A stretch of DNA of 64,000 bases from Bacteroides fragilis (lineage in GTDB: Bacteria > Bacteroidota > Bacteroidia > Bacteroidales > Bacteroidaceae): assembly GCF_019583405.1 (NCBI RefSeq), contig NZ_SZUU01000008.1, forward strand, positions 62,001 through 126,000. The letters are read 5' to 3'. The notes beneath the pieces are model-generated. The model did not search any database. It was not told where the DNA came from and saw nothing but the letters and a program-made list of their open reading frames with translations. The position numbers and the translations under genes are program-made. Positions 26,985 through 44,314 of the stretch are shown one piece after another (the first letter of the stretch is position 1; each line of letters opens with the position of its first letter).

Positions 26985-27004
26985 ATTAAGTTCTCACGGA
27001 ACTT
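26985..27004. repeat. Left inverted repeat of invertible segment 1
   Basis: ATTAAGTTCTCACGGAACTT. It is matched in reverse complement at 27431-27450 in 19 of 20 positions. The core is itself a palindrome, AGTTC-TCACG-GAACT, as expected of a site-specific recombinase crossover site. Confidence 0.85.
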
Positions 27005-27286: not shown

Positions 27287-27317
27287 TTGCATATTATTAA
27301 AAGTTATCGCATCTTTG
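27287..27317 (+). promoter_or_regulatory. Promoter inside invertible segment 1, facing away from SusC
   Basis: TTG (27287-27289), 20 bases, then CATCTTTG (27310-27317), one base off TAnnTTTG. The spacing and the TTGC at -33 are the same as in the promoter of segment 2. No + strand gene follows to the right, which makes sense only if the promoter is used after inversion. Confidence 0.6.
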
Positions 27318-27430
27318 CCAAGAGATATTGTGATTTTATAAACACAAGTTAGCCTAAGTTAACAAAAAAATATTAATACAAGAACAGGTCAAAGGTTAAG
27401 GTACATTTACAGAAACACTTTAATGGCGAT

Positions 27431-27450
27431 AAGTTCCGTGAGAACTAAAT
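27431..27450. repeat. Right inverted repeat of invertible segment 1
   Basis: AAGTTCCGTGAGAACTAAAT, the reverse complement of the left repeat except for one base. It lies 426 bases from the left repeat. Confidence 0.85.
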
Positions 27451-27787
27451 TCTTCTTATACTCCGTTCATAATGCACAGGTGAGCATTATTTAATATTAA
27501 TCATGAAAATCTTTTTCTTCAGCGGAATTTTCTGTTTTTTGTTTTGAGACTTTATATTTAATTTTTGTCTTTTTCTTTCCGTTTCCTATCCGATTTTGTT
27601 TAATAGTGTTTATATTTAGGACTGTTGGATTAAGAAATACTAAAGTGTTAAATATGATACTTTTTGAGTTCTTTAATAAGGATAGTAGAACAGTAGTAGT
27701 AAGATGCGGATGGTGGTAAGATTAGGTTTGGACATCTCTATATGATGGATCTGTTTCTCTGGGTAAATCAGTGTCTGTGTAATAAAG
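27451..27787. other. Gene-free stretch right of invertible segment 1
   Basis: No coding sequence is supported on either strand. The only structure seen is a small hairpin, ATAATGC (27469-27475) pairing with GCATTAT (27484-27490), about 150 bases downstream of the outward promoter. Confidence 0.5.
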
Positions 27788-27832
27788 CAAAAACATCCCC
27801 GGAAAAAAACTTTTCTTCCGGGGATGTTTTTA
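27788..27832 (-). terminator. Terminator of the GH95-containing locus
   Basis: AAAAACATCCCCGGAA pairs with TTCCGGGGATGTTTTT (16-bp perfect arms) with a short A/T loop. It lies 24 bases after the GH95 stop at 27856 on the - strand. Confidence 0.9.
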
Positions 27833-27855
27833 TTTAATAGGATTATACTAAAGTA

Positions 27856-30345
27856 TTATTTGATGACCAGTCGGTCTCCATCTAAAGCCAATTTATAAAC
27901 TATTCCTTTACTTGTTTTGAAAGAGAGAACCTTATCTCCATATCTTACCGTACAAGGCTCACCTGCTTTCGAAAAGATGGTTGCTTCTGCAAGCTGTCCG
28001 TCTTTCCATGACAAGTCTACCTCAAAGTTCCCTTTGGCGCAGATTCCACTAATACTTCCGTTTTTCCAGGCATCCGGAAGTGCGGGTAATAGTTGAATGA
28101 AGCCCATGTGACTCTGAAGCAGCATCTCTGTGATACCGGCGGTACCTCCAAAGTTCCCGTCGATCTGGAAAGGCGGGTGAGTATCCCACAGATTGTCCAA
28201 TGTACCGTTTTTCAGCAAATTGCCGAAAAGTTTGTATGCGTGGTTACCGTCTTGCAGACGTGCCCATTGGTTAAGTTTCCATCCCATACTCCATCCGGTT
28301 GCTCCGTCGCCGCGATGCTCAAGTACCACTCTGGCGGCTTTGGCGAGATCGGGCGTGGTGATGGGTGAGAGAGTATGTCCCGGGTGTAGTCCGAAAAGAT
28401 GGTTGACGTGACGGTGTTCGTCTTTCGGGTCGTCTATATCTTTCGACCATTCCATCAACTGACCGTAGCGACCTACTTTATAAGGAGCCAGATGTGCCAG
28501 CACTTCTTGCCATTGTTTACGTTCCTTGCTGTCCACTCCGAGCACTTTACTTGCTTCGATAGCATCCAGTAAGATTTCGCGGATTACGGCATGCACAAAG
28601 GTGGTTCCTTCGTCAATCGGTCCGTGTTCGGGCGAAGTGGAAGGAGCTGCGGTGTAAGTTCCATCCGGTTTGCGCCACAAAAAGTCAGTGGCAAACTGAG
28701 CACTGCTCTTAATCAAATCGTATCCGGTTTCTTTCAAGAATTTCTTGTCACGGGTATAATCATAATATTCCCAGATGTGTGTTGCCAGCCAGGGACCGGC
28801 CATCGGATTGAAGTTCCACGACATATCTTCGCTTTCGAGTGGAGCGGTAAATCCGAAAATATTGGCCGAAATGGATGCGGTCCATCCCCTTGTTCCGAAA
28901 TAAGCTTGTGCTGTTTTCTGTCCCGGTTTTACCAATGTACGGATAAAGTCCACCAACGGGAGTGTACATTCATTGAGGTTGGTCGAGCAAGCCGGCCAGT
29001 AGTTCATTTGTATGTTGATGTTGTTATGGTAGTCTACTCTCCACGGACCGTCTACGTTGTTGTGCCAGATGCCTTGCAGGTTGGCAGGCATGTTGCCCGG
29101 TCTTGAGCTGGCGATAAGCAGGTAGCGTCCGAACTGATAGTAGAGTTCTTCGAGATAAAAGTCCGGTTGTCCTTTGCGATAGTTTTGCAAACGCTTGGCT
29201 GTAGGCAGGCTGGCGCTTTGCTGATCGGGATTCAACTGTAACTTCACTCGGTTGAACAAGGCGGCGTAGTCGTCATAGTGTTGTTTGAACAGCACATCAT
29301 ATCCCATGGTTACCGCATTGTCCATCCATTGACGAGTGGTTTCGGCAGGGTTTACTCCTACGTATGTTTTGGGATCCTTGAAGTCCGGATCAAAGTTTAT
29401 TTTATAATCCGTATCCGCAGTGACGAGGAATACTACTTCGTCGGCATCCTTTATGGTAATTTTTCCGTCTGCGTTTGACAATGTTCCGCCTTTGGCAGTG
29501 GCATGGATGCGTACGACGTACTGCATACCGTTGTTGTCGAGGTGGGCAGTGTATGCAAGGCCGTTGGCACCGTCTGCCGACATACTTCCTGTCGATACGG
29601 GATTGGGGGCGTAACTGAAAGTAAGGTTCTGCTTGCCCGGCCGGTCGGCTTTGAAGCGGATTGCCATCACATTGGCAGGATAGGAAATGAAGTAGTCGCG
29701 TTCGTAGGCTACATCGTCTTTCTTGAATTGCACCACGGCCAATGCCGAATCCAAAGAGAGAATACGTTTATAGTCACTCATATTCACAGCGCTCAGTCCG
29801 GTTTCTATATAAAACTCTCCCATTGTGGTGAAGTTACCAAAACGGAAAGGCTTTTCGCGGCTCGACTCATAAGGCACTTCGCTATTGAAGTTCTTGCGCG
29901 TCAGCATTTCGGCTTTTTTCTGGTCTCCGTCGGTAAAGGCCTGGCGTATTTCTTTCAGTACGTGTGCCGATTGTTTGTTTACATTCCAGTAGGCATCGGC
30001 TCCTCTCGAAGTGTTAGGTCCTCCTCTCCAGAGAGTTTTCTCGTTGAAGGTGATGCGTTCCGCCTCTATCGAGCCCATGATGTTGGCTCCGATGCTTCCG
30101 TTTCCAATGGGCAATGATTGCGACTCCCAGTTGGCATCCGGGTTCCGGGCAGTGTCTCCTGCACTTTCCGGTTTACTTTCTCCTTTCCAGAGGTCGGGAC
30201 GGCTGCCATACCAGATGGCTCTGCCCTGTAGCGTATTCGGTGTGTCGAACCAGATGGAGAGCCCTTGCGTGTAGTCGGTGCCGCCGGCGTGTGCTGCCGG
30301 AAGAGCGAACAGGGCACTGAGGAGAAATGAATAAAGTTTCTTCAT
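27856..30345 (-). CDS. GH95 glycoside hydrolase, probable alpha-1,2-L-fucosidase
   Basis: 829 residues. GH95 enzymes remove terminal fucose (some remove L-galactose) by inversion. Signal peptide (about 1-20, ending AHAG), so it acts in the periplasm. The N-terminal beta domain holds the family motif LPIGNGSIGANIMGS and TFNEKTLWRGGPN; the (alpha/alpha)6 barrel holds HNNINIQMNYW (about 441, the paired Asn residues), STSPEHGP (about 571, the acid Glu) and FQIDGNFGGTAGITEML (about 728, Asp). All key residues match those of the bifidobacterial AfcA enzyme as I recall them. It is the last gene of the locus that starts at 41,512. A possible own -7 box (TATTTTTG) lies at 30397-30404. Confidence 0.92.
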   Translation of the reverse strand: MKKLYSFLLSALFALPAAHAGGTDYTQGLSIWFDTPNTLQGRAIWYGSRPDLWKGESKPESAGDTARNPDANWESQSLPIGNGSIGANIMGSIEAERITFNEKTLWRGGPNTSRGADAYWNVNKQSAHVLKEIRQAFTDGDQKKAEMLTRKNFNSEVPYESSREKPFRFGNFTTMGEFYIETGLSAVNMSDYKRILSLDSALAVVQFKKDDVAYERDYFISYPANVMAIRFKADRPGKQNLTFSYAPNPVSTGSMSADGANGLAYTAHLDNNGMQYVVRIHATAKGGTLSNADGKITIKDADEVVFLVTADTDYKINFDPDFKDPKTYVGVNPAETTRQWMDNAVTMGYDVLFKQHYDDYAALFNRVKLQLNPDQQSASLPTAKRLQNYRKGQPDFYLEELYYQFGRYLLIASSRPGNMPANLQGIWHNNVDGPWRVDYHNNINIQMNYWPACSTNLNECTLPLVDFIRTLVKPGQKTAQAYFGTRGWTASISANIFGFTAPLESEDMSWNFNPMAGPWLATHIWEYYDYTRDKKFLKETGYDLIKSSAQFATDFLWRKPDGTYTAAPSTSPEHGPIDEGTTFVHAVIREILLDAIEASKVLGVDSKERKQWQEVLAHLAPYKVGRYGQLMEWSKDIDDPKDEHRHVNHLFGLHPGHTLSPITTPDLAKAARVVLEHRGDGATGWSMGWKLNQWARLQDGNHAYKLFGNLLKNGTLDNLWDTHPPFQIDGNFGGTAGITEMLLQSHMGFIQLLPALPDAWKNGSISGICAKGNFEVDLSWKDGQLAEATIFSKAGEPCTVRYGDKVLSFKTSKGIVYKLALDGDRLVIK

Positions 30346-30396
30346 GTTTTGGGTGTTATTTTAGGGGTTAGTTATATTGGTTTGTCATAGTCTGCG

Positions 30397-30404
30397 CAAA
30401 AATA
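30397..30404 (-). promoter_or_regulatory. Possible internal promoter -7 box before GH95
   Basis: CAAAAATA on the + strand reads TATTTTTG on the - strand, matching TAnnTTTG, 52 bases from the GH95 ATG. No -33 element is clear. Confidence 0.35.
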
Positions 30405-30441
30405 ATAAAAACTATTGATTTTCACGCAGACTGCTTCGGGT

Positions 30442-33400
30442 TTACTGCGGAGCGATGTAGATTAGCCATCCTTTTCTGGGTGCTGTACTTATCGGGTCGT
30501 CAATATTCCATTCGTCAGCCTCCTGCATATCCTGAATCTCAGGTGCTACCAACTTCACTTGTTGCGGGTCGAGTCCTAACTGTTCCCAGTTTATGCTCAG
30601 TTTCACGCTCTTCACTTCATCCGAATAGTTGCCGATGGATAGCAGGGTCTTTCCCGGTTTGCGATAGGCAGTGACTTTGACAGCCTCGTCGGATGTGGAG
30701 ACGGCCGGATGTTCCTCCCAGAACCCGAGCATGGTGGCGTCCGCAATGCCGAATGAATCCCATACCTTCCATACCTGTCGCGGATCGCAGTTGACTCCTT
30801 CGGTGTACCATGGATAGCGGACAGTCATTCCGTATTGCATCCCTAACCATGCATTGCCTCCTCTGTACAGCATATCGCCTGTTAGTCCGAACGGAATACC
30901 TGACGATTCTACCAACCAGTTGGCCGGTGTCATTTTATCGTAAAGGAAGCTTTCACCGAACCATAGTTTGTCTACATACGGGAAGAACTCCGTATATTGA
31001 TTGGCAGGTCCCCTCGAGAATCCTGTATTCGAATGCAGATCGATCAGGCATCCCGGCTTTACGCTTTCCATGGCGCGGCGCATCCGTTTCAGGATACGGC
31101 GGTCAAAGGAAACGTCATCCAGATAGATACCGTCGATGTCCATGTTCTGCACCATCCAGCGTAATCCTTCTATATAGTAGTTGTACCACCGGGAGTCTCC
31201 TTCCGCTGTCAGTACGGAGGCATCGGCCGTGATGCCCTGTGCGTTGGCATAGTCAAAGTGTTCGTACCACTGTGGCGTGTAGTCCGCCACGAAGTGTTCG
31301 CGACACCATGGGAAGCCTCCGCCGTTGCCGCCTCTCAGTATCTCGTGTCCCAGGCTGCGGATGGCCCAGATTTCGGATGTGGCGTTGCTTAGTTCACGTA
31401 GTGTGTAGTATATTTTCACCTTACACCCTTTGGCATGCCACTCTTTGGTGAACTCCTTCATCTTGTCTACTGTGAGGAACGGATAGTTGATAAACGGATT
31501 GTAGTTATTCCCCTGATGAACGTTGATGATGCGCACGCCTGCTTCGATATCAGCCTGAGTCGGTGTCGGTTTAGGGCCGTTGTGGTAATAACGGTCTGTA
31601 AACTGGCTTCTCATATTCAATGGCTTCACCGGAGTGATGATCGTGGCAAAGTCGAATGTGATGGGCTTACCCGCTTCGAGTGTGCGTTCTCCGCTGTATG
31701 CCACAGCTTTCACTCCGTCTGCCTCTTTCCGTATGGCGAATCCGCCCTTACCCCCGTTGAACCAGCTTTCCGGATAGGCCGGACGATACAGATTCAATAG
31801 CGGACCGCTGTAGGTGCTTCCCCTGAATTCGCAGTGGATACCCGCATGTTCGTTTCCGATCCAGAAGCTGTCGAACGGCCACAGCCATTGTTGCTCTTTC
31901 GATGTAGGAATCGATACTCCGAAGTTGTTCACCGTTTTCTCCGGTGCGTCCCATTTACCGTCGTATTGTTGAGGCGTGGCTTGCCCCGGAAGGCCCATCC
32001 CCAGGAAGTAAGTTCCTACTTTGTTCGTGACCGGCAATACCAAGCGGATATCTTTCACCTCTATCCGCTTCTTAGGTGTGATGGTGTATACGTAGTTCAT
32101 CCATCCGTCGAACTCCATGATTGCTTTGCAGCTTACGGTCATCTCTTCGTCCTCAGCCTTCCAGCTTCCGGTCACATGGCCTTCGGTATGTTCCGTCAGT
32201 TCGGGGATGGCTTTCAGCTCTTTCACCCCGGCGGCGGTTTGTATCACAAACCGCATGGGGCTGCTCAGCACGTCGTTGTTCCATGAACGAATCTGTGCGG
32301 GTAGCCCTGTGGTTTCGTCCACCGTAACGGTGCGTCCCAGACATCCGATCCGGTTCTCGTCTACCGTCATCGCCGTATAGGGTCCGGTAGGTGTATCGGC
32401 TATGCCCAGTGTCGAGTTCAGCCATCTCAGGCGGCTATATCTCCACAACTCGTTGTCGCCTCTGTCGGCCAGCGGCTCTCCCGCTATTCGTATGCTTACG
32501 GGGACTACGCCTTGCGCTCCGTTAGCGTCACTGATGGTGATGGTGCCTGTATAGACTCCTTCTTTCTGCCCGTCGGGTATATCTACTCCGAACCAGAGAG
32601 CCTGTACCTCTCCTTTGGGTACGTTTACTTCTTTTTTGAACGCTTTTCCGTAAGGATCGGTTCCTTCGACATTAAAACAGGTAATGGCTGTTGCCGATAT
32701 TATTTCCCGGCCACACTTCAGGGAAGAAGCCCGGTAAGCAATCTTGTCTGCTTGGTTCACGGCTGCCCAAAGCCCGATCTGGAAGGTATAGTATTCATTG
32801 GGGGCTGCTTCTCCCCGAAACAGTTTTCCCTGTTTGTCTGCCAGCCATTTGGTGGGGAGGTTGTTGCGCATCCGGATGGGGAACCTGCGATCTTCGGCAA
32901 AGAGGTAGAGGGCGGCTTTGTTGCGGTTGACGTAGTTTTCTTTTTCCCGGGCCGTTGCGGCAACTTCCATCGGATAAAAACTGTCGAAAGCCTGTCGCGA
33001 CTCTACTTTGACCACTTTGGCCTGAGGGCTTTTGCGGGTTGCTTCGGCCTCGGACAGCCAGGTTGCGTCCGGTGCGCTTTCTTTCGGAATGTATCCGCCA
33101 TTGTAGAATCCGTATCCATTTTGTACCCGATAGGGCAGGTAGTAGAAGTAGTACGTGCCTTTCTCCTTGACCGGGCCGAATTGCAGGCGGCAGTGTTCAT
33201 TGTTCACTTCTATCCGCCGGATGTTGCGGATGGTGTCTCCGGTGGCCGCATGGATAACCAGGAACCGCCTGTCGTCTACATCCTTGTCCGGACGTCGCCA
33301 TTCAAAGTCGAGCGCCACCACCTTTGCCGGTTTCTCTATTTGCAGTATAGCCCGGTGATTGCCAAAAGACTCCTCCCACGGGCTGGAAGGAACACCGTAC

Positions 33401-33489
33401 GGATAGTTTTGTGGCTTTTGGGCTGCGATCGGCCCTGCGCCTCCTACTGTAAGCAGCAGGCATGTGAGTGATAGTACATGTAGTCTCAT
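30442..33489 (-). CDS. DUF6067-type glycoside-hydrolase-like protein
   Basis: 1015 residues. Signal peptide (ends PIAAQK, about 24), N-terminal beta-sandwich domains to about residue 340, a central super-sandwich-like region (340-560), then a TIM-barrel-like part with GCKVKIYYTLRELSN and a catalytic-looking block DIDGIYLDDVSFDRRILKRM (about 780), LIDLHSNTG and LWFGESFLYDK, and a C-terminal beta domain (SIGNYSDEVKSVKLSINW). The fold order resembles glycosidases of the GH-A/GH27-36 superfamily; substrate and mechanism are not established from sequence. It sits between GH95 and the acyltransferase, and so probably trims the same fucosylated glycan. Confidence 0.75.
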   Translation of the reverse strand: MRLHVLSLTCLLLTVGGAGPIAAQKPQNYPYGVPSSPWEESFGNHRAILQIEKPAKVVALDFEWRRPDKDVDDRRFLVIHAATGDTIRNIRRIEVNNEHCRLQFGPVKEKGTYYFYYLPYRVQNGYGFYNGGYIPKESAPDATWLSEAEATRKSPQAKVVKVESRQAFDSFYPMEVAATAREKENYVNRNKAALYLFAEDRRFPIRMRNNLPTKWLADKQGKLFRGEAAPNEYYTFQIGLWAAVNQADKIAYRASSLKCGREIISATAITCFNVEGTDPYGKAFKKEVNVPKGEVQALWFGVDIPDGQKEGVYTGTITISDANGAQGVVPVSIRIAGEPLADRGDNELWRYSRLRWLNSTLGIADTPTGPYTAMTVDENRIGCLGRTVTVDETTGLPAQIRSWNNDVLSSPMRFVIQTAAGVKELKAIPELTEHTEGHVTGSWKAEDEEMTVSCKAIMEFDGWMNYVYTITPKKRIEVKDIRLVLPVTNKVGTYFLGMGLPGQATPQQYDGKWDAPEKTVNNFGVSIPTSKEQQWLWPFDSFWIGNEHAGIHCEFRGSTYSGPLLNLYRPAYPESWFNGGKGGFAIRKEADGVKAVAYSGERTLEAGKPITFDFATIITPVKPLNMRSQFTDRYYHNGPKPTPTQADIEAGVRIINVHQGNNYNPFINYPFLTVDKMKEFTKEWHAKGCKVKIYYTLRELSNATSEIWAIRSLGHEILRGGNGGGFPWCREHFVADYTPQWYEHFDYANAQGITADASVLTAEGDSRWYNYYIEGLRWMVQNMDIDGIYLDDVSFDRRILKRMRRAMESVKPGCLIDLHSNTGFSRGPANQYTEFFPYVDKLWFGESFLYDKMTPANWLVESSGIPFGLTGDMLYRGGNAWLGMQYGMTVRYPWYTEGVNCDPRQVWKVWDSFGIADATMLGFWEEHPAVSTSDEAVKVTAYRKPGKTLLSIGNYSDEVKSVKLSINWEQLGLDPQQVKLVAPEIQDMQEADEWNIDDPISTAPRKGWLIYIAPQ

Positions 33490-34134
33490 ACTTATAAAAA
33501 TTATCTGTTAAACGTTCTATTTTATTATGCGTGTTCCCCTTACCGAGATCACCCGTGAGCAAAGTGTCACTTTGATTATCGGACCTCTTCAGAATCGTTT
33601 CTTTAGGACCGACTGGCAGCCCGGGCGAAAAAAACGCGCCCTGCGTGTAATGTCCGATATCACATTTCCCGTCTTTGGGCTTGTTTGCTTTTACTTTGAA
33701 GGTGGAATGACGGTTCCGCCGGTAAATAGTTCCTTTTCCGGTCTCCTTCCTGCTTTTCTGTCAGTGTGCCATGCTTTGTCTGCAATGGTCAACGGGAGAA
33801 AAAGTTCTTTCGCCAAGACCCGTTTCGGATCGCAATAGGAGATATTCTGGACAACAATAGGAGATATTTCCGGAACATAAGGACATTTTAGGAAAATGCT
33901 TACTTCTTTCCGGGTAAATGCTTACTCCTTTCGGAGTAAATGCTTGCTTCTTTTTCCGAAAAGCAAGGCTCTTTTACCCCCGGAACCCGGCTTTTCACCT
34001 ACGAAAGCTGCCGTTCGGCTTTTTTTTTCTCCTGAAGCATCCGAAACGGATAGAAGCTCTGTCAGCGAAAAGTGCTATTCGGTTTCTTTTTGCGCTATGA
34101 TTCTGCAGATGGCTGACACTTCCGATCTTCCCAC
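33490..34134. other. 645-base gap with dispersed repeat and no supported gene
   Basis: It separates the DUF5009 stop from the DUF6067 start inside an otherwise compact locus. No frame has gene-like composition. It contains three imperfect tandem units of about 21 bases (AAATGCTTACTTCTTTCCGG type) at 33894-33960, also seen near 53433. The surrounding sequence (CCCGGCTTTT, CGGCTTTTTTTT) also resembles that other gap. The gap may be an inserted repeat element or the remains of a lost gene. Confidence 0.5.
33893..33985. repeat. Dispersed repeat, copy 1 (three tandem units)
   Basis: Units of the form AAATGCTTACTTCTTT-CGGGGT occur three times in a row, then CCGAAAAGCAAGGCTCTTTTAC. Copy 2 at 53413-53505 has two such units followed by CCGAAAAGAAAGGGTCTTTT. 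The two copies are in the same orientation and both lie between - strand genes. Confidence 0.7.
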
Positions 34135-35262
34135 TCAGATCTTCAGGAATATCTTCTGCCTGTACATGATCCGTAGGATAAGGAATACAATCAGATAGTT
34201 GGCTAAGCTTAACCACACCTGATAATAACCGCCCAAGTATTGTTCCAGTCCGTAACTGACGGATGCTGCTATGCAACGGAAGTTGATGACCTCTCCCAAG
34301 ATATAAGCCGTAATGGAGTTCATGCCGTATATTTTCAACCAGTTCAGCCCGCGGCTGTGTCCTTTGTAGTCTATCCGGTAGTAGAAGGCACCCATCAGCA
34401 GGAAGCAAAGTCCGCCGGAAAAAAGCGTCATGCTGCTTGTCCACAACCGTTTGATGATGGGCATTTGCAGACTCCATATCAGTGAGAAGGCTATCAGGGA
34501 TATGCCGATTATCAGCAAGGTCTGTACCACTTTCCGGCGATTATCCTTGCCTGCTTTCATTATCTTTCCGGCAAAAGCTCCCAGCATCACGGTAGCCCCG
34601 AAAGTGAGGCTGCTCCAGATCCAGGTGTAGTTGTAGTGAGCAGAGAAGCTCCAACTGCCGTCTTCATTCCAGAACACTCCGTCGCGGAAATGCCCCAGTA
34701 CCAGCCTGTCCACCTTCTCGGCAAAGTTTCCTTCCGGGGTGAAGTCGCCCAGGAAGGTCATCGGTATCCAGTAGATCAGTAATAGCAGGGCTGTGACGAT
34801 CAGCTGCCAGCGGAAGTTGCAATGCAACTGTATGATGGCGGCAATCAGATAGCCTGTGGCAATGGCTTGAAGGGTGTTGGAGTATAAGTACAGATGTTTC
34901 GGGTCGAGGCCCAGCAGATTGCCCTGTACAATCATTCCGAAGATGAACAGAAGGATGAAGCGTTTGATGATTTTGCGGTAAACGGGTCCTTTGTCCGGAT
35001 TGTCTTTAAACTTGGAGAACGAGAACGGCATGGAGGCTCCTGTCATGAAGAGGAAGAGAGGCATTACCAGATCCCAGAAACGGAACCCCTCCCACACTTC
35101 ATGATCGAACTGGAAAAGGATGCTGTTCAGCCATGGGAGGTTGAGTTGATGTGCCAATGTCCACAATACCGGCTGGAAGAAGACCAGCAGGAAAAGGTCG
35201 AAACCGCGCAGGATGTCCAGTGAGGCCAGGCGGGGAGAGGTGGGTGATGAAGGCTTTTTCAT
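34135..35262 (-). CDS. DUF5009/HGSNAT-like membrane acyltransferase
   Basis: 375 residues with about ten transmembrane helices. It starts with a short cytoplasmic tail and RLASLDILRGFDLFLLVFFQPVLW, with FDHEVWEGFRFWDLVMPLFLFMTGASMPFS close behind. This is the signature of the DUF5009/YeiB-like family related to heparan-alpha-glucosaminide N-acetyltransferase (NagX in other Bacteroidetes). Such proteins are thought to move acetyl groups across the membrane onto amino sugars or glycans. In this locus it may acetylate a sugar freed in the periplasm. It starts 12 bases after the stop of the short beta-helix gene, so the two are co-transcribed. Substrate unknown. Confidence 0.82.
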   Translation of the reverse strand: MKKPSSPTSPRLASLDILRGFDLFLLVFFQPVLWTLAHQLNLPWLNSILFQFDHEVWEGFRFWDLVMPLFLFMTGASMPFSFSKFKDNPDKGPVYRKIIKRFILLFIFGMIVQGNLLGLDPKHLYLYSNTLQAIATGYLIAAIIQLHCNFRWQLIVTALLLLIYWIPMTFLGDFTPEGNFAEKVDRLVLGHFRDGVFWNEDGSWSFSAHYNYTWIWSSLTFGATVMLGAFAGKIMKAGKDNRRKVVQTLLIIGISLIAFSLIWSLQMPIIKRLWTSSMTLFSGGLCFLLMGAFYYRIDYKGHSRGLNWLKIYGMNSITAYILGEVINFRCIAASVSYGLEQYLGGYYQVWLSLANYLIVFLILRIMYRQKIFLKI

Positions 35263-35274
35263 AAGCGGAAGGGA

Positions 35275-35721
35275 TTATTTGATCGTTGTTTTCAGATCTT
35301 TTCTTTTCATATTCTCTGTTTTTATACTCTGCCGGGGGACCTCTCCTTCGAATACGGTGCCTTCTATCACTGGCTTCTTGCAACCGTTCAGATAGAAAAC
35401 GTACGGATTACCGGATGTGGTAGGAAAAGTTTCCGTGCGGACGATGGTGTTGTTCCTGAACAGGAGTCCTGCCGTACTCTTGGCGTAGAGCACCGGGTAG
35501 TCGAATGCTCTGAAGGTGTTATTCTCTATGCGGATGTTCTGGTGTACCGGGCGTTCGGCATCGATGACTTTGCTGGAGGGATGTATGGCGATCACAGCAT
35601 GGCCGGGGCCTCCATTATAGGTACAGTCTATATCGGTGACGTAGATGGTATCTTTCTGCTGTGCGTGGGTGGTAGCGCAAAATAAAAAGAAGGCGGATAG
35701 GATGTGCAGATACTTTTTCAT
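35275..35721 (-). CDS. Short secreted beta-helix protein, probable internal-deletion remnant of a GH110 alpha-galactosidase
   Basis: 148 residues. A normal signal peptide (MKKYLHILSAFFLFCATTHAQ) is joined directly to what looks like the last turns of a right-handed beta-helix: RIENNTFRAFDYPVLYAKSTAGLLFRNNTIVRT, with the NNT ladder repeated, then VIEGTVFEGEVPRQSIKTENMKRKDLKTTIK. The ladder and ending resemble the C-terminus of GH110 alpha-1,3-galactosidases, which are about 600 residues, but I cannot align it here. If so, the catalytic middle has been lost by an in-frame deletion and the product is probably inactive. Alternatively it is a small intact PbH1-repeat protein. A -7 box at 35778 would allow its expression. 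Confidence 0.55.
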   Translation of the reverse strand: MKKYLHILSAFFLFCATTHAQQKDTIYVTDIDCTYNGGPGHAVIAIHPSSKVIDAERPVHQNIRIENNTFRAFDYPVLYAKSTAGLLFRNNTIVRTETFPTTSGNPYVFYLNGCKKPVIEGTVFEGEVPRQSIKTENMKRKDLKTTIK

Positions 35722-35777
35722 GGTATGTAGTCTCCTCTTGCTTTAAATGTATTATTGGATAAGATGAATTGGGTATC

Positions 35778-35785
35778 CAAAGGTA
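35778..35785 (-). promoter_or_regulatory. Internal promoter -7 box before the enzyme genes of the locus
   Basis: CAAAGGTA on the + strand reads TACCTTTG on the - strand, an exact TAnnTTTG match, 57 bases before the ATG at 35721 and just downstream of an internal hairpin. It suggests the enzyme genes can be expressed independently of the switch in front of SusC. Confidence 0.45.
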
Positions 35786-35825
35786 TATGATTTTTCTGTA
35801 TTAGTGGATTGCTTGAAGCTAAATA

Positions 35826-35877
35826 GAAGCCGCCGGGTTACTATTTATTTCCATAAATATGTTTACCCGACGGCTTC
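35826..35877 (-). terminator. Hairpin between the Sus surface genes and the enzyme genes
   Basis: GAAGCCGCCGGGTTA (35826-35840) pairs with TTACCCGACGGCTTC (35863-35877), 13 of 15 positions plus a wobble, with a second small stem ATTTAT/ATAAAT in the loop. It lies about 75 bases after the surface-lipoprotein stop. The T-run is weak, so it may be an attenuator or an mRNA-stabilising end. Confidence 0.6.
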
Positions 35878-35951
35878 AGAGAACATCTGATAATTAAGCA
35901 ATACTTACCTATTGAACCTGTGACTTCTACAAGTCATAATCAGCCGGGGGA

Positions 35952-36431
35952 CTATTTGTTCAGAGTAACTTTCACTGTCCAGATTTTCTTTGTACCGTTG
36001 GCAGCCATTACGCTGTATTTATGCTCCTGGGTCCAATCGGCAGGAACACCGAACTTGGGTGAACCGTCCAATGGGGTGACGCGGGCGGCGGTAGATACAT
36101 TGACGTAAACCACGAGGTTACTCAATGACACTTTAGCGCGTTCGGCCTCTGTGAATTTGCCCCCTGCGGCAGGAATTGTAAATACGGCAGTGGCTACACC
36201 GTGCTCCGAGTCGATATTGTTTGTACGGTCCAACTCTTTTTCGGCTACAATGTTTTCTCCCGTGATGGCATCCTTATCGCCGGAGTAGAAGCGGTGATAA
36301 GCACCTACTTTGGTTATTTCCGCCTCTTCGTAGGCGGGCAGATCTTCTTTACTGCAAGAACTGATGATGGGAGCACAGATCAGCAGCAGTAACATAAACC
36401 ATTTGGTATCTGATAATTTGATTCTCTTCAT
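35952..36431 (-). CDS. Surface lipoprotein in SusE position (DUF5018-like)
   Basis: 159 residues. Lipoprotein signal with lipobox IISSC (Cys about 26) followed by SKED, the acidic +2 region typical of surface-exported Bacteroides lipoproteins. The rest is a small beta-sandwich-like domain (TAVFTIPAAGGKFTEAERAKVSLSNLVVYVNVSTAARVTPLDG ... KYSVMAANGTKKIWTVKVTLNK), the pattern of DUF5018/cadherin-like domains found in extra glycan-binding or anchoring lipoproteins of SusCD loci. It follows SusD by 42 bases on the same strand. The ligand is not readable from the sequence. Confidence 0.75.
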   Translation of the reverse strand: MKRIKLSDTKWFMLLLLICAPIISSCSKEDLPAYEEAEITKVGAYHRFYSGDKDAITGENIVAEKELDRTNNIDSEHGVATAVFTIPAAGGKFTEAERAKVSLSNLVVYVNVSTAARVTPLDGSPKFGVPADWTQEHKYSVMAANGTKKIWTVKVTLNK

Positions 36432-36473
36432 ATTATTTCCTTCTTAATTTATTTAATGAATGAACTGTTGTGT

Positions 36474-38327
36474 TTACCATCCCGGGTTCTGGTCGCTGTC
36501 ATTGATGGCGGAGTTGGCATTGATGATGCTTTGTGTGATCGGGAACAGGTAGCGTTTCTTGGAGAATGTACGGTCGGCATTGGTATATCCTACAGTACCT
36601 ACAAACATGCGATGCCTGTCTTGGCTGATCTCAACAAAGGTGGCCGGTGAACTCAATTCCGGAATGATGTCTCCTGCGGGTTTCCCGTGATTGGCTTCGC
36701 CGCCGTACATGCCCCAGCGTAACAGACTCCAGTAGTAATCGCCTTCCAGAGCCAGATCTACGTGACGCTCAATCTTATAATCGTTCCATGCGTCGGCCAG
36801 TGAAGCGGCGATGGAAGGAGGCAGATTGCCGTGGGTGGTGCGTGTCCGGTTGAATGTGGCTACCGCACTGCTCACTTTGGAGGCATCGTATTTGGCCAGT
36901 CCGAGCAAAGCTTCGGCCTTATTCAACAATGCACGTCCGTAGCGGAAGATGACATAATGGTAGTCGGTCGGATTGTTCCAGAAGATGCGTTCGGCGTTGA
37001 CATAGATATATTTGCGCCAGATGTAGTTCGTTATGGGGATGTATCCGTTGCCCGGTGTCTTACCGTCTACGGCTGTCCTATGCAGGTTTCCGCCCTTATG
37101 AAGAGTGATCAGCTCATTGTAGAACATACACGAATCATACTGGATGGAGTGATAGAAGCGTTGGTCACGGTTCTTGTACATAAAGTCATTGATCTGCACG
37201 TCCGGAGCGTTGCTGTTTGTCTGATACGCCAGGCTGTTGTCATCCAGCTCTTTGGCATCTACAGCCATGTCCGCTACGTCGGCATTGGATAATGGTGTCG
37301 TGTTGTTCAGGAACTGGGTCGACTCATTCCATTTCACGCCTTGGTTGGTAATCTGGTCTATTACTAAATAATCGTCCACCAGATTCTGGGAAGGTGAGTG
37401 TTCCAGCCAGCATTCAAACACCAGGTCCTGATTGAAGAACGGACGTCCTCCGTAGTCCTCCAGGCGTTTGTTGCTCTGGTTGGGAAGCATCTCCTGCATA
37501 AGTGTACCTGCACCGTTGGTGTTATCCTTGCTGTAATATTGTGCCAGAATGATTTCGGGAGATGTCCTGGCACCATCCTGATTGAACATACTGCCGTAAT
37601 TGCTGTCCAGTGTGTATCCTTGTATGCCGTCTACTGCCGCTACTGCCTGCTCGAAGAGTGACTTCTTGCGGGTGTCGTCTGTGCTGTAGGCAGCAGCTGT
37701 CAGGCATACTTCTGATTTCAGCTCACGGGCTGCATTGGCATTGATACGCCCTTGCAGGGAGGTTTCGGGCAGTCCTGCGATGGCATCATCTATATCTTTC
37801 AGGATCAGGTCGTACGTTTTGTCGATAGATTCTGTGAGCGGTAAGTTGAATTCATCCGTTTCAGCCAATACATGGTCTACCCAGATCACACGTCCGCAAT
37901 GCTTGGCAATATAATAATAGGTCATTGCACGCAGCATCTTTCCCTCGGCTGCCAATGCTTTCTTATCCGCATCGGACAAGCCTGTAGACGCTTGCGATTT
38001 TTCGATGATCAGGTTACATCGGCGGATGGTGCCGAACTGGTTGAATCCCCATGACCAGTCACGGTTCATAAGATCTCTGGCTTCATTCGGGCAGTTCTGG
38101 CGCATGACCGAATTCAAGGTCCATTGCTCCTCCGTGCGGATATCGTGATAGAACGGAAGGACATTGTTGTAGGTTTGCAATACAAAAGCGTCCGCTGTCG
38201 ATTTTAGGCTCCAGACGAGGTCTTCCGAATAAGATTCCATGGGCTTCGTATCCAGGAAGTGTTCACAGCTTTGGAGTGTCAGTGCTACGCAAAAGAGCGC
38301 AGGAGTGATGTATTTTATGAATTTCAT
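36474..38327 (-). CDS. SusD/RagB-family glycan-binding lipoprotein (second pair)
   Basis: 617 residues from the ATG at 38327 (MKFIKYITPALFCVALTLQSC), which gives a standard lipoprotein signal with lipobox LQSC. An in-frame ATG eight codons upstream (38351) is only 5 bases from the SusC stop and adds a poor N-terminus. SusD features: EHFLDTKPMESYSEDLVW, GKMLRAMTYYYIAKHCGRVIWVD and the C-terminal DYKIERHVDLALEGDYYWSLLRWGM. It forms the glycan-capturing lid on the SusC encoded just upstream and is followed by the SusE-position lipoprotein. Confidence 0.95.
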   Translation of the reverse strand: MKFIKYITPALFCVALTLQSCEHFLDTKPMESYSEDLVWSLKSTADAFVLQTYNNVLPFYHDIRTEEQWTLNSVMRQNCPNEARDLMNRDWSWGFNQFGTIRRCNLIIEKSQASTGLSDADKKALAAEGKMLRAMTYYYIAKHCGRVIWVDHVLAETDEFNLPLTESIDKTYDLILKDIDDAIAGLPETSLQGRINANAARELKSEVCLTAAAYSTDDTRKKSLFEQAVAAVDGIQGYTLDSNYGSMFNQDGARTSPEIILAQYYSKDNTNGAGTLMQEMLPNQSNKRLEDYGGRPFFNQDLVFECWLEHSPSQNLVDDYLVIDQITNQGVKWNESTQFLNNTTPLSNADVADMAVDAKELDDNSLAYQTNSNAPDVQINDFMYKNRDQRFYHSIQYDSCMFYNELITLHKGGNLHRTAVDGKTPGNGYIPITNYIWRKYIYVNAERIFWNNPTDYHYVIFRYGRALLNKAEALLGLAKYDASKVSSAVATFNRTRTTHGNLPPSIAASLADAWNDYKIERHVDLALEGDYYWSLLRWGMYGGEANHGKPAGDIIPELSSPATFVEISQDRHRMFVGTVGYTNADRTFSKKRYLFPITQSIINANSAINDSDQNPGW

Positions 38328-38356
38328 ATATTGTCTTCTTTTTAAGTTCATACTAT

Positions 38357-41300
38357 TTAGAATCCTACATTGACACTGATGGAGTATACTCTTGAAACCG
38401 GATAGGTGTAGAGGTTGCCGTCGCCGATTTCCGGGTCGATGTCGAACTTATTCGCTTTACTGAAAGTCAATAAGTTATAACCATTCAGAGAAACGTTACA
38501 TTTATTCATCCATGCCACTCTTTTGAGTAGTTTATGTTTGAAGTCGTAGCCGATGGATAATGTCTTCAGGCGAAGATAGCCTGTGTTGATCAGCCAGAAG
38601 TCTGAGCTGCCGTAGTTGTTACTGCCGTTGTAGCTCGCCGTACTCCTCAAACGTGGATAGCGGGCTCCCGTATTATTCGGAGTCCATACGTCGGTCTGGA
38701 AGTCATAGATAACAGGAGGATAACCGCTGCCGCTTTGGCTTCCCTGAATCATACCGCCCATATAAAGGTCGGCCGGAGTAGCTCCCTGCCACAGCATGTT
38801 CATAAACCAACCCTTATAGTTCAAGTCGGCACTGAAACCATATTGACCGCGAGGCATACTGTTTTTACCGATACGGTGTTGATCGGAACCATCAATGATA
38901 CCGTCACCGTTGAAGTCATTGTATTTCAGGTCGCCTGCACCCAGGTTGGTGGAACTCTGTCTTTTAGGTGAGTTCATTATATCTTCCTGGTTCTGGTAAT
39001 AGCCCAGACAGTCGTATCCGATACCCCAATATCCTTTGGCTTGAGTCGTGCGTTTGTATGGGTTTTTGGTATCTGTCTCCGCTTCATTCGGGTTGATATT
39101 CCAGTATTGATCGAAGTAAGTAAAGTTACCCGAAAGAGTGTATTCGAAATCACCTCTCTTCTCTTTCCATTGCAGAATAAACTCAGCACCCTGGCGGATG
39201 AATTCACCGTTTGACTTTACTTTGGGTAATGCGATACCCAACGGGTCAGTATAAGCTACTGCTGACGGAGAGGTCAGATAACCTTTGGTACTTTTGCGGA
39301 AATAGTCTACAGAACCAGAAAGACGATTGTTGAGTGATCCGAAGTCGAAGCCGATATTGAAGTCACGGGTGGTGTACCACGTAATATCTTTGCTTACCAG
39401 AGCGCCTTCGGAAAATCCCGGATACCAGCTTCCGTTCAGCAGGTAACCACGATCATTTAGTCCGTATGATTGGAGGTAGGCATAGCGTCCGATGGCATCT
39501 GAACCGATCTCTCCATAAGAAGCTCTCACTTTGAACTGATCGAAGATATGACGGTCCTTTAATGTCTTCCAGAAACTTTCTTCCGAGATGACCCATGCAA
39601 GAGATCCGGCATAGAATGTTCCCCAGCGTTTGCCTCGGGGGAAGTTGTCGCTACCGTCGTAACGGAGACTAACTTCGGCCACATATTTGCTGGCATAGTC
39701 GTATTTCAGTCGGGCTACTACACCGGCACGCGCTTGTTCACCTTCCGAAGAACTGTTTTTGGCTGTAGATACAGGACCTGCACCGATTTGGTCTACATCC
39801 AGCAAATACTCTTCGCGGGATAATGATGAGTCGTCAGTGAAGAGCTTGTAAGCTTCGATACCGGCTGTGGCGCTGATCGTGTGTACCTGATTGAAAGTGC
39901 GGTCGTAATTGGCAAAACCTTGCACGGTGTACGATGACCAGTTTGAGTAAGACTTACTCAGCGAAGGTTTGCCCGGATCGTTGGGATTGCCGTCCCAGTC
40001 ATATGCTAAAGGTGATTTTTTCCAGCTCTTTGACTTGTCGTTGTTGATGCGGTAGTTACCCAGTGCTTTTAATCGCAAGCCCGGTACATAAGGTACACTC
40101 CATTCCAGTGCGAGGTTAGCTATGGCACTGAGGTTTTCGTTCTTAGTGTATCCGGCTTCGGGGGAGATTTCCATCAATGGGTTGTCCGGCGTGTTGAATA
40201 TCTGTCCGTTCGGATTATAAGCTATTTCCCAGGGAGCTTTATTCTGGATATGTCCCCAGGTGTGATAATAGCTGTCTCCTGATTTGGCATTGGGCGATCT
40301 TAAGTCCGTCTTATAAGCTTCGATGCTGGAAGTAACTTTCAAGCCTATTTCTTTGAAGTCCGCTACAATGTTTGTACGGAAGTTATAGCGTTTGAAGCTG
40401 TTTACGTCGAACTTATAGAGTGACTTCTGATCGTAGAATCCCAGTGAAGTGTATGCTTTTATCTTTTCGCTACCGCCGGTAACGGTCAGGGTATGCTGCA
40501 TTTCCGGTGCAAAGTTCTTCAAACAGAGTTTCTGCCAGTCTGTATTGGGGTACTTTCGTGGATCTGACCCGTTACGGAACAATTCCAGCTCGGCATCCGT
40601 ATAAGCCGGTGCTAATCCATCATTGGTCATACTCATGTTCTTGTAGAAGGCTGCATCGTGAGCATCCAGTTTATTGGGCATATTGGCAGGTTGACTCCAG
40701 TTATAGTTAAAGTTATAATTGACGCTCATTTTTCCTGCTTTACCTTGCTTGGTGACTATCATTACAATACCATTGGCGGCACGTGCTCCGTAAACGGCGG
40801 TAGAAGCGGCGTCTTTCAAAATTGTGATCTGTTCGATATCCTCAGCATTCAGGTTGCGGAAATCGCGTTCTTCCGAGATAACATCGTCGATTACATATAG
40901 AGGAGTACCTCCACCGCGGATAGAGATACTGGAGAAATTGTTCAGACCTCCACCGCTGGTTGTAACCAATAGACCCGGCGCACGTCCCGCCAGGCTTTGG
41001 GTGATGTTTGCCGTTGGTGCTTTGATGATGTCTTCGGTGTTGACACTGGCAATGGCAGCAGTGGTTTTACGTTTGGAAGTCGTGCCATAACCTACCACGA
41101 TGACTTCATCTAATGTCTTGGTGTCTTCTTCCATGGTGATGCGTAAGTCTTTGGATTTTCCGACAACGACTTCTAAAGGCTTATATCCGATGTAGCTGAT
41201 TTCGAGTACGGCCTTGTTAGGGACATTCGGTATCATAAACTCTCCTTCCATATTGGTGATGGTACCGATAGTGCTTCCTTGTACTTTTACCGAGGCACCG

Positions 41301-41512
41301 ATAATGGCTTCTCCGTTTTCATCGACTATTTTACCTGTGAGTTTCTCCGTTTTACTCTGCTGTGTGGCTGTGACAGCATATGTTTCATAAGTGTCTGCTA
41401 CGGCAACTTGTGATGTCGTGCAGAATAACAGGAGACTGATGCCTGCTATTTTCAAAAAGTGCATTTCTCGAGGGCATGTGAGCTTCGGAAACAGGTTAGT
41501 TCTTTTTGTCAT
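38357..41512 (-). CDS. SusC/RagA-family TonB-linked outer-membrane transporter (second pair)
   Basis: 1051 residues. The extended N-terminus MTKRTNLFPKL parallels the other SusC. Signal stretch ending VAVADT, carboxypeptidase-regulatory-like domain (about 55-130), TonB-box-like DEVIVVGYG, plug (about 140-255; APGLLVTTSGGG, SISIRGGGTPLYVIDDV, ILKDAASTAVYGARAANGIVMI) and barrel ending YSISVNVGF. There is no STN domain, so regulation through an anti-sigma factor is unlikely. It is the first gene of the locus containing GH95 and probably imports the fucosylated oligosaccharide. Its ATG lies 192 bases from invertible segment 2. Confidence 0.95.
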   Translation of the reverse strand: MTKRTNLFPKLTCPREMHFLKIAGISLLLFCTTSQVAVADTYETYAVTATQQSKTEKLTGKIVDENGEAIIGASVKVQGSTIGTITNMEGEFMIPNVPNKAVLEISYIGYKPLEVVVGKSKDLRITMEEDTKTLDEVIVVGYGTTSKRKTTAAIASVNTEDIIKAPTANITQSLAGRAPGLLVTTSGGGLNNFSSISIRGGGTPLYVIDDVISEERDFRNLNAEDIEQITILKDAASTAVYGARAANGIVMIVTKQGKAGKMSVNYNFNYNWSQPANMPNKLDAHDAAFYKNMSMTNDGLAPAYTDAELELFRNGSDPRKYPNTDWQKLCLKNFAPEMQHTLTVTGGSEKIKAYTSLGFYDQKSLYKFDVNSFKRYNFRTNIVADFKEIGLKVTSSIEAYKTDLRSPNAKSGDSYYHTWGHIQNKAPWEIAYNPNGQIFNTPDNPLMEISPEAGYTKNENLSAIANLALEWSVPYVPGLRLKALGNYRINNDKSKSWKKSPLAYDWDGNPNDPGKPSLSKSYSNWSSYTVQGFANYDRTFNQVHTISATAGIEAYKLFTDDSSLSREEYLLDVDQIGAGPVSTAKNSSSEGEQARAGVVARLKYDYASKYVAEVSLRYDGSDNFPRGKRWGTFYAGSLAWVISEESFWKTLKDRHIFDQFKVRASYGEIGSDAIGRYAYLQSYGLNDRGYLLNGSWYPGFSEGALVSKDITWYTTRDFNIGFDFGSLNNRLSGSVDYFRKSTKGYLTSPSAVAYTDPLGIALPKVKSNGEFIRQGAEFILQWKEKRGDFEYTLSGNFTYFDQYWNINPNEAETDTKNPYKRTTQAKGYWGIGYDCLGYYQNQEDIMNSPKRQSSTNLGAGDLKYNDFNGDGIIDGSDQHRIGKNSMPRGQYGFSADLNYKGWFMNMLWQGATPADLYMGGMIQGSQSGSGYPPVIYDFQTDVWTPNNTGARYPRLRSTASYNGSNNYGSSDFWLINTGYLRLKTLSIGYDFKHKLLKRVAWMNKCNVSLNGYNLLTFSKANKFDIDPEIGDGNLYTYPVSRVYSISVNVGF

Positions 41513-41704
41513 ACATTAAATTATTCGGTTAAACATAAAAATGTGATTTGGAGGATATAGATCAGACTGTCTAATCTACATCGATTTGGGAGGATTCTTT
41601 CAGGTTCTCATAGGCATTAGCTTTTGGTTTATAATATTAAGTCTGTTCAATAACCTTGCTGAACTATGCTGATTGTTATCTGGAAAAAATAGAGCTAAAT
41701 GAGA
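41513..41704 (-). promoter_or_regulatory. 5' leader of the second SusC gene
   Basis: It has no gene. TTCGGTTAAACA at 41524-41535 and CTGAACTATGCTGATT at 41659-41674 match elements at equivalent places in the other SusC leader, while the rest differs. This suggests a conserved untranslated leader element next to the crossover site and another next to the start codon. Confidence 0.5.
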
Positions 41705-41722
41705 TAGGTTCTTTCAGTACTT
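41705..41722. repeat. Left inverted repeat of invertible segment 2
   Basis: TAGGTTCTTTCAGTACTT. Its reverse complement lies at 42127-42144 with one difference in 18. The core GTTC-TTTCA-GTAC has the same half-site spacing as the repeat of segment 1. Confidence 0.82.
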
Positions 41723-42013
41723 TTACCATCTGTATTAGATTGATTATTAATGGTGTATTAAGTGGAGTGTAAAACGGTGAAGATGCTTGGCCGAATATTT
41801 TAATGCTTTTGAGTGGGAGGTATAATACCTATTTTCTACCTTTTACTTATATATTCACCTGGAATATAGTTTATTATCGTTTATGGGAAGAGTTGTGAAC
41901 GCTATCTGCATGTTTCTTCTGCCATTTCAGTGCTAACCGAATAAATGAAAATCTTAATGATATTAAATCTTTATTATATAAATTATGTTGGCATAAAAAA
42001 ATATAGTAAAAAG

Positions 42014-42044
42014 TTGCAGGGATATTAACTTATTGTTATCTTTG
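42014..42044 (+). promoter_or_regulatory. Promoter inside invertible segment 2, facing away from SusC
   Basis: TTG at 42014, 20-base spacer, TATCTTTG at 42037-42044 (exact TAnnTTTG). After inversion it would lie about 83 bases inside the left repeat and read into SusC. Confidence 0.7.
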
Positions 42045-42126
42045 ACCCCATAATAAATACTAATAATTGCAAATACAATGGTTAACTGGTTCTAAGAGCT
42101 ATCTGTTGTCTTTTCGTATAATTTCT

Positions 42127-42144
42127 AAGTACTGAAAGAACTTA
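42127..42144. repeat. Right inverted repeat of invertible segment 2
   Basis: AAGTACTGAAAGAACTTA, the reverse complement of the left repeat with one mismatch. Confidence 0.82.
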
Positions 42145-42646
42145 GCCTATTTTTCTGCTGAGATTTTTATCATTATTTTTATTATATATCATTTATAAGG
42201 GTTGTCGATTCTTTCAATGTGGTTTATCGTATTCTGAGAAATTAGATAATTCCGTTCTTTCCGCAAGTATCATTTTTGCAAGATTTATTCCGTATCCGTA
42301 TTGGAGGATTGTTTCGTTTGACTTTTATTTTTTCTATCTTGAAGCGGTAGTTACTTGTCAGGATGGTAATTATGTCTTTGAAGAATGAATGGACGAAATC
42401 TTAAAGAATAAGATTTGTTTTCTATCTGATGTATTGAAAATCAGGAAAATGAATAGTATGGATTTCTTATATTGCAACCTTCGTTTTAACAGAGCGTTAA
42501 AGGCAGGGTTCTGATAACAAATAACAAGTCTTTTACAAGCAGAAGGCTTGTTGTTTGCATATAGGAAAAAAGTAATATGAAAACGGTATTAACAATGTTA
42601 ATTGAGAAAAGATGCTAATCGGTGGGTTTTGTAGTGCAGGATAAAA
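42145..42646. other. Gene-free stretch between invertible segment 2 and pckA
   Basis: No supported gene. The only structure seen is a hairpin, CAAATAACAAGTC (42518-42530) pairing with GGCTTGTTGTTTG (42545-42557). It could end rightward transcripts made by segment 2 in its present orientation, though it lacks a T-run. Confidence 0.45.
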
Positions 42647-42678
42647 AGAAAGGCGGCTCTTTGTAGAGTCGCCTTTTG
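42647..42678 (-). terminator. pckA terminator
   Basis: AAAGGCGGCTC pairs with GAGTCGCCTTT (one wobble) around a TTTGTA loop, 28 bases after the pckA stop on the - strand, ending in a T-run. Confidence 0.85.
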
Positions 42679-42706
42679 CTTATTTAAAGTTGTTAACTTT
42701 GTCTGA

Positions 42707-44314
42707 TTAGAGTTTCGGACCAGCAGCAACCAACTTCTTACCAGCTTCGTTTCCAGTGAACTTAGCGAAGTTCTTGATGAAACGACCGGCAAGGTCTTTT
42801 GCTTTTTCATCCCACTGTGCAGGATCAGCATAAGTATCGCGAGGATCAAGGATCTTCGGATCAACACCCGGAAGTTCTGTAGGAACAACAAAGTCGAAGA
42901 AAGGAATAACCTTAGTAGGAGCTTTGTCGATAGAACCGTCAAGGATAGCGTCGATGATACCACGAGTATCTTTGATAGAAATACGTTTACCGCTTCCGTT
43001 CCATCCTGTGTTAACCAAGTATGCTTTAGCACCGGTCATTTCCATCTTCTTAACCAATTCTTCTGCATATTTAGTTGGGTGCAATGATAAAAATGCAGCA
43101 CCGAAGCAAGCAGAGAATGTCGGAGTCGGTTCAGTGATACCACGTTCTGTACCGGCCAATTTAGCTGTAAATCCAGACAGGAAGTAGTACTGAGCTTGTT
43201 CCGGGTTCAAGATAGATACCGGAGGCAATACACCGAAGGCATCAGCTGACAAGAAGATAACTTGTTTAGCGTGAGGACCTTTAGACACCGGTTTAACGAT
43301 GTTTTCGATGTGGTAGATAGGATAAGAAACACGAGTGTTTTCTGTTACTGATTTGTCAGCGAAATTGATTTTGCCATCAGCAGCTACTGTTACGTTCTCC
43401 AACAGAGCGTCACGTTTGATAGCGTTGAAGATATCCGGTTCACTTTCTTTATCCAGGTTGATAACCTTAGCGTAGCAACCACCTTCGTAGTTGAATACGC
43501 CTTCGTTGTCCCATCCGTGTTCGTCGTCACCGATCAATTTACGTTTCGGGTCAGTAGACAAAGTAGTTTTACCTGTACCAGACAAACCGAAGAAGATAGC
43601 AGAGCTGGTTCCTTCCATATCTGTGTTAGCAGAGCAGTGCATAGAAGCGATACCACGAAGCGGGTTCATGTAGTTCATGATTGAGAACATACCTTTCTTC
43701 ATTTCACCACCGTACCAAGTATTCAGGATAACTTGTTCTTTAGTCTTCAGGTTGAAAACTGTAGCAGTTTCTGAGTTCAGACCCAGTTCTTTGTAGTTGT
43801 CAACTTTTGCTTTAGAAGCGTTGAAGCATACGAAATCAGGTTCTCCGTAGTTAGCAAGTTCTTCAGCTGTCGGGCGGATGAACATGTTAGTTACGAAGTG
43901 TGCCTGCCAAGCTACTTCCATGATGAAACGTACTTTCATGCGAGTACTTTCGTTAGCGCCACAGAAAGTATCAACAACGAACAGGCGTTTGTTAGAAAGT
44001 TCTTTAACGGCTTTAGCTTTCAGGTCAGCCCAAGCTTCTTCTGAACAAGGTTTGTTGTCGTTCTTGTATTCTTCAGAAGTCCACCATACTGAATTTTCAG
44101 AAGCTTCATTCTTAACGAAGAATTTATCTTTAGGAGAACGGCCTGTGTAAACGCCAGTCATTACGTTTACAGCACCCAATTCTGTTACTTGACCTTTTTC
44201 AAAGCCTTCCAGACCTGGTTTTGTTTCTTCAGCGAACAAAACATCGTAAGACGGGTTGTGCAGGATTTCAGTTACACCTGTAATACCGTACTTGCTTAAA
44301 TCTAAATTTGCCAT
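42707..44314 (-). CDS. pckA: Phosphoenolpyruvate carboxykinase (ATP)
   Basis: 535 residues, full family length. It interconverts oxaloacetate and PEP with ATP/ADP; in Bacteroides it mainly fixes CO2 onto PEP on the way to succinate. Visible signatures: [28 protein letters not shown], the P-loop [11 protein letters not shown] followed by [14 protein letters not shown] (metal Asp), and [17 protein letters not shown]. It has its own promoter (TACTTTTG at 44413-44420 on the - strand) and terminator, and is divergent from upp. Confidence 0.98.

Follow-up and report, generated by a model that had tools for sequence, protein, structure and literature searches.

Introduction

In Bacteroides, the -33 box of promoters is TTTG and lies 19-21 bases from the -7 box. 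The site consensus of the B. fragilis invertase Tsr0667 is reportedly AGTYYYN4GDACT, a string that was not found in the literature searched. Tsr0667-controlled invertible regions of B. fragilis YCH46 are said to have been described by Nakayama-Imaohji et al. in 2009 (J Bacteriol 191:6003). This 2009 study is cited by PMC4747536 and PMC11852207. The former attributes to Tsr0667 the inversions at three SusC/SusD clusters and at nine further regions, and gives the Bacteroides -7 consensus as TAnnTTTG.

The DNA analysed here is a stretch of 64,000 nucleotides from a B. fragilis genome (the window, to which all positions without a contig prefix refer), with two inverted-repeat segments located ahead of SusC genes. 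Segment 2, the subject of this report, resembles the Tsr0667 regions in its site consensus, in its location before susC/susD, in the mixture of simple switches and shufflons, and in the putative tyrosine recombinase, but it differs from them in one mismatch of the inner arm and in being known in one orientation only. The IVp-I and IVp-II promoters (BF2766/Tsr19) are similar to segment 2 in simple promoter inversion and a TAnnTTTG -7 box, and BF2766/Tsr19 is a single tyrosine recombinase that acts on remote sites as well, as in the scheme proposed for segment 2 (PMC4747536). They differ in the recombinase and in their targets, which are EPS and an outer-membrane gene cluster. The Mpi/FinA capsule promoters of B. 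fragilis are also invertible promoters under one global enzyme, but this enzyme is a serine recombinase and the loci are capsule loci (PMC4747536 and PMC3090145). The segment 2 locus is not named in the literature passages searched, and it may already be listed in published papers or tables.

Results

Segment 2 is a real feature and very probably a working switch of known kind. With high probability it is an invertible promoter flipped by site-specific recombination at sites of the Tsr0667 class. The features of the region are listed in Table 1.

Table 1. Positions of the two segments, their sites, and neighbouring genes in the window.
Feature	Position	Strand	Remark
GH95 protein, 829 aa	27856-30345	-	
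GH123-type protein, 1015 aa	30442-33489	-	
DUF5009/NagX-like membrane acetyltransferase, 375 aa	34135-35262	-	score below NCBIfam cut-off
DUF5018-related protein, 159 aa	35952-36431	-	
SusD-family lipoprotein, 625 aa	36474-38351	-	
SusC/RagA-family outer-membrane transporter, 1051 aa	38357-41512	-	presumed target of the switch
Fixed SusC leader	41513-41706	-	
SusC-proximal (inner) arm	41697-41722		core 41707-41721, GGTTCTTTCAGTACT, one mismatch to AGTYYYN4GDACT
Segment 2	41723-42126		404 bases predicted to invert
Bacteroides-type promoter	42013-42044	+	GTTG 42013-42016, 20-base spacer, TATCTTTG 42037-42044
SusC-distal (outer) arm	42127-42152		core 42128-42142, AGTTCTTTCAGTACT on minus strand, exact to AGTYYYN4GDACT
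Terminator-like hairpin	42648-42677	+	between segment 2 and pckA; 1 found, shuffle mean 0.7
pckA (PEP carboxykinase)	42707-44314	-	3' end faces segment 2; outside the switch
Segment 1	26985-27450		core AGTTCTCACGGAACT, both arms exact to AGTYYYN4GDACT; before SusC 23519-26779

Arms and promoter of segment 2

A sequence-only reading had described 18-base inverted repeats with 17 of 18 bases matching at 41705-42144, and the arms were confirmed there as TAGGTTCTTTCAGTACTT (41705-41722) and AAGTACTGAAAGAACTTA (42127-42144). When extended, the arms are 26 nt each, 85% complementary, and 404 nt apart. Without mismatch, the arms pair over at most 15 bp, a length that was equalled in 1 of 1000 dinucleotide shuffles of 41513-42706 (perfect pair of at least 15 bp with 150-1200 bases between). 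The mismatch of the proximal arm, a G at the first base of the core, is common to the window, strain Q1F2 (L010), the Bacteroides MAG locus L011, and genome G105.

The exact promoter that had been noted as pointing away from SusC toward pckA was found in this orientation, on the strand opposite to that of the SusC start codon (ATG at 41512). Its -33 box matches TTTG at three of four positions and is separated from TATCTTTG by 20 bases. TTG-N19-21-TANNTTTG is present in 110 of 2000 shuffles of segment 2, so the promoter match is weak if taken alone; TANNTTTG on either strand is present in 1050 of 2000. The promoter boxes and their spacing are unchanged in Q1F2, L011, and G105, to which segment 2 is 94-99% identical. 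No Bacteroides-type promoter was found on the SusC strand of the fixed leader at the threshold used (exact -7 box, or one mismatch there together with at least 3/4 at -33), and a general promoter scan gave a single sigma-70-type consensus match in the leader (41547-41520, 9/12). Rfam gave no match at gathering score over 26500-43000, and 41513-42706 had no match in the plasmid records searched. Viral contigs were also scanned with the 15-base arm on its own, over at least 120 stretches; the 80 listed had one match each, and this pattern is too short to be informative.

Segment 1 has arms at 26985-27004 and 27431-27450, which are 95% complementary with 426 nt between them. It has no exact TANNTTTG on either strand, and it adjoins a SusC/SusD pair other than that of segment 2. 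The claim that segment 2 repeats the layout of segment 1 is thus right for the arms and the site class, but not for the exact -7 box.

Genes behind the switch

The SusC gene starts 192 bases past the 18-base proximal arm, and SusD is next. GH95 is an alpha-fucosidase family, and the fucosidase that had been claimed for this locus is the GH95 protein, encoded beside that of GH123 type. With SusD, small proteins, and the NagX/DUF5009-like, GH123, and GH95 proteins encoded behind SusC, the locus fits host-type glycans. A gap of 645 bases (33490-34134) lies ahead of the GH123/GH95 genes. The extension of phase variation to the whole host-glycan locus may stand for SusC/SusD and perhaps for the genes behind them, but for the locus as a whole it goes further than shown because of this gap, because segment 1 precedes another SusC/SusD pair, and because of the missing exact -7 box of segment 1.

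For the SusC protein, identity is 99.9% with Q1F2, 97.7% with L011, and 97% with G105. When compared with Q1F2, positions 39001-42000 of the window (most of SusC and much of the switch region) were 98.8-100% identical in 12 of 12 steps of 250 bases, the next step was 96.8% identical, and most of the locus behind SusC (27.75-38.25 kb) was about 75-95% identical. SusC with the switch region is, by this alignment, a recent exchange. The pckA product is 99.6% identical to that of G105 and 90% to that of Q1F2, while the neighbouring SusC shows the opposite pattern, and these reversed affinities suggest a mosaic neighbourhood. Q1F2 has about 1.4 kb extra at 35631-35632 of the window, among the small genes behind SusD.

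Site class within the genome

The palindromic core AGTTCYNNNRGAACT was found at 15 sites versus 1 control in this genome, and at 17 versus 2 in G105. The degenerate consensus AGTYYYN4GDACT is not enriched in this genome, with 81 matches (35 + 46) versus 96 controls (51 + 45). The survey comprised the window and 15 stretches around sites that seemed paired, palindromic, or close to contig ends, and arms were counted as a simple pair if they had two or fewer differences in 15 positions. Nine simple pairs were recognized, and in all of them the match to a SusC homologue begins at most about 1.1 kb from an arm. On C4 there is a tenth site cluster, a shufflon comprising four SusC genes. Eight single sites in these stretches had no partner within their own stretch. 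Exact TANNTTTG is present in six of the nine simple segments and missing in three, including segment 1; it is directed only away from SusC in four (including segment 2), only toward it in one, and both ways in one.

Contigs C6 and C8 of this assembly stop one base past a class site, C19 has a class site 5 bases from each of its ends, and the distance to a class site is 107 bases both at the C7 end and at the C8 start. Of the 1.6-kb segment missing where C6 and C8 stop, a search of this genome recovered only two pieces, of 150 and 64 bases.

Orientation in other genomes

Compared with Q1F2, one of nine segments is flipped, namely C3:589179 (82.5% identity over 400 bases), with both flanks unflipped; the right flank of segment 1 had no match in this comparison. 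Thus C3:589179 is inverted between genomes despite arms that differ at two positions. Compared with G105, one of the eight segments found is flipped, C2:194487 (96.5% over 254 bases), again between unflipped flanks, and C3:589179 had no match in the G105 stretch used. Six other segments of this genome were seen in one orientation only versus Q1F2 and G105, which is a small sample.

The record NZ_CP018938.1 of Q1F2 (G061:C2) is listed by PLSDB as a plasmid of 45,350 bases. It is collinear with positions 390060-435466 of the Q1F2 chromosome except for an inverted 13.4-kb block between two AGTTCTAAACGAACT sites, and this block is 99.985% identical to the chromosome, with no mismatches and two gaps. 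Judged from this alignment, the record is an alternative orientation of a chromosomal SusC shufflon and no plasmid.

Segment 2 was searched in 158 genomes of the genus. Any match was found in 13 of them, and four of these matched over at least 631 of 648 bases: the present genome, G148 (with the coordinates of Q1F2), G105, and G176, the last being 100% identical to L011 over 3630 bases. The remaining matches are 28-46 bases long. No inverted copy was found among the four full carriers, which all have segment 2 in the single, presumed OFF, orientation. Since members of the class occur in both orientations and segment 2 in one (4/4), its own inversion is deduced from the class. The claim of an invertible promoter before SusC is therefore well supported by the class, but segment 2 itself has one orientation in the four genomes.

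Candidate recombinase

A tyrosine recombinase of 393 aa is encoded at C19:5507-6685 and is 98% identical in G105, at 714214. It has the usual catalytic motifs, judged by eye, and sits within a SusC/SusD shufflon in which the flanking SusC 5' ends carry four class sites. This protein is likely the orthologue of Tsr0667 and the enzyme acting on these sites. Its position near 0.71 Mb of G105 would, by estimate, suit the number BF0667, and from this position it is tentatively identified with BF0667.

The phyletic distribution of the recombinase was compared in 119 genomes of the genus. Genomes with a relative of at least 70% (32, including this genome and G105, some copies being broken or partial) have 1.01 core sites per Mb versus 0.40 for the control, those with a relative at 50-69% (39) have 0.47 versus 0.50, and those with no relative at 50% (48) have 0.61 versus 0.50. 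The difference between the first group and the rest gave a Mann-Whitney p of 0.0014, uncorrected for kinship. In 16 of the 20 site-rich genomes (five or more sites, exceeding the control by three or more), a relative of at least 67% is present; no relative of at least 50% was found in the other four (G027, G069, G100, G134). This pattern favours the 393-aa recombinase as the putative invertase, as a supporting and not a decisive argument. The genome G069 is 99% complete and has five core sites and one control, and none of its listed recombinase relatives is above 32%; perhaps its sites are used by a different enzyme.

Of 28 recombinase matches, four shorter ones were examined for nearby sites, and another recombinase of this genome may be the enzyme instead. 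These four tyrosine recombinases (313-315 aa; L035, L037, L040, L043) had no exact consensus site within 30 kb and were rejected as the invertase. L037 adjoins a fimbrial anchor gene. The identification of L040 as Tsr19 beside Mpi was dropped because the neighbouring frame had no Pfam match.

Modules in related loci

The pckA flank of G105 is followed by another switch (sites at 5023728 and 5024130), a SusC of 1092 aa, a SusD of 670 aa, and only then by segment 2. This module of about 6.4 kb (L105 5720-12100; G105:C1:5023728-5030111) is missing at 42128-42230 of the window, where the pckA flank ...GGCTAAGTTCT directly joins segment 2. The breakpoint between G105 and the window lies within the common 7-base half-site AAGTTCT, and the bases ahead of the two sites, outside AAGTTCT, are unalike by eye. 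In L011 the SusC and SusD genes of this module also lie between the pckA flank and segment 2, over the part of the locus covered. The module genes are absent between pckA and segment 2 in Q1F2, in which the pckA match stops about 1.2 kb before SusC. A search for the G105 module at other places of this genome and of Q1F2 gave only paralogues of SusC/SusD, the best with 80-81% over about 900 bases. The best account of the presence and absence of the module would be recombination between directly oriented sites. That class sites insert and excise whole modules of switch, SusC, and SusD, and so are docking points for phase-variable nutrient receptors, is put forward tentatively, as a possibility that is somewhat doubtful.

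An orthologous locus is present in B. neonati (SusC 69%, SusD 61%, GH123 74% identical), and no pair of the Tsr0667 site class was found there upstream of SusC. The B. neonati locus (L016 5580-5824) has a perfect pair of 23-base repeats, GTTAC...GTAAC, of another site class, around 199 bases; promoter-like TATATTTG with -33 TTTT lies inside and is directed away from SusC. G027 has a 57-58% SusC homologue with a class site, and there TATATTTG is directed toward SusC (-33 only 1/4) and TACTTTTG away from it. A class pair upstream of SusC is present in three of ten homologue loci, L078 (G105), L079 (G027), and L083 (G134), and absent in the other seven (L080, L081, L082, L084, L094, L095, L097). 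It was not found in L012, from a Phocaeicola MAG. From B. neonati, G027, and these ten loci, it seems that the switch at such SusC genes was, in some relatives, either retained or acquired again with other sites, and that it is absent in others.

Discussion

In the proposed mechanism, a tyrosine recombinase encoded elsewhere in the genome would pair the two 15-base sites, cut inside them, and flip the bases between. The orientation as read would be OFF, as the promoter would fire away from SusC and its transcripts would end at the hairpin. After the flip, the minus strand would carry the -7 box at about 41805-41812; this form would be ON, with a transcript start about 285 bases ahead of the SusC ATG and with SusC/SusD, and probably also the genes behind them, being made. 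For this copy, we infer the inversion, the promoter activity, and the identity of the acting recombinase.

An accidental inverted repeat with an accidental promoter match in an AT-rich intergenic region is hardly credible as an explanation of segment 2. The promoter match alone is frequent in shuffled sequence, but an arm of this length is rare there (1/1000), and, as an independent point, the sequence of the arms agrees with the site class that precedes SusC genes of this genome; the segment is also conserved among relatives. It is quite improbable that segment 2 is a former switch locked OFF, in which the inner arm recombines never or too rarely and SusC is made from another promoter or is silent. 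The common orientation of the four genomes and the identical inner-arm mismatch in the window, Q1F2, L011, and G105 would agree with this, but 14 of the 15 core bases are unaltered, as is the spacer, C3:589179 flipped with arms that differ at two positions, and the segment, its arms, and its promoter are preserved at 94-99% among relatives. Moreover, the six other segments are likewise seen in one orientation versus Q1F2 and G105.

The sites of segment 2 could also belong to a larger shufflon, in which recombination with segment 1 or adjacent SusC modules would swap whole receptors and not only flip a promoter. The pckA flank of G105, which leads into another switch with SusC and SusD, and the junction of the window within AAGTTCT point this way, and the same site class serves shufflons elsewhere in these genomes. 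This arrangement is nevertheless unlikely, as segments 1, 2, and 3 differ in their spacers, which normally limits exchange, and the stretch from segment 1 to segment 2 is not inverted in the window, Q1F2, or G105. A simple invertible promoter of the Tsr0667 site class is the preferred reading of segment 2.

Such a switch would make this locus, with GH95 and GH123 proteins that fit host-type glycans, subject to random on/off control, and therefore only a part of the population would make the transporter at any moment. SusC proteins occur in abundance on the cell surface. PMC10939037 reports that, in the vicinity of susC/susD, orientations are not the same in inflammatory bowel disease as in controls. 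If the module exchange is true, the same enzyme would also explain the gain and loss of receptors between strains.
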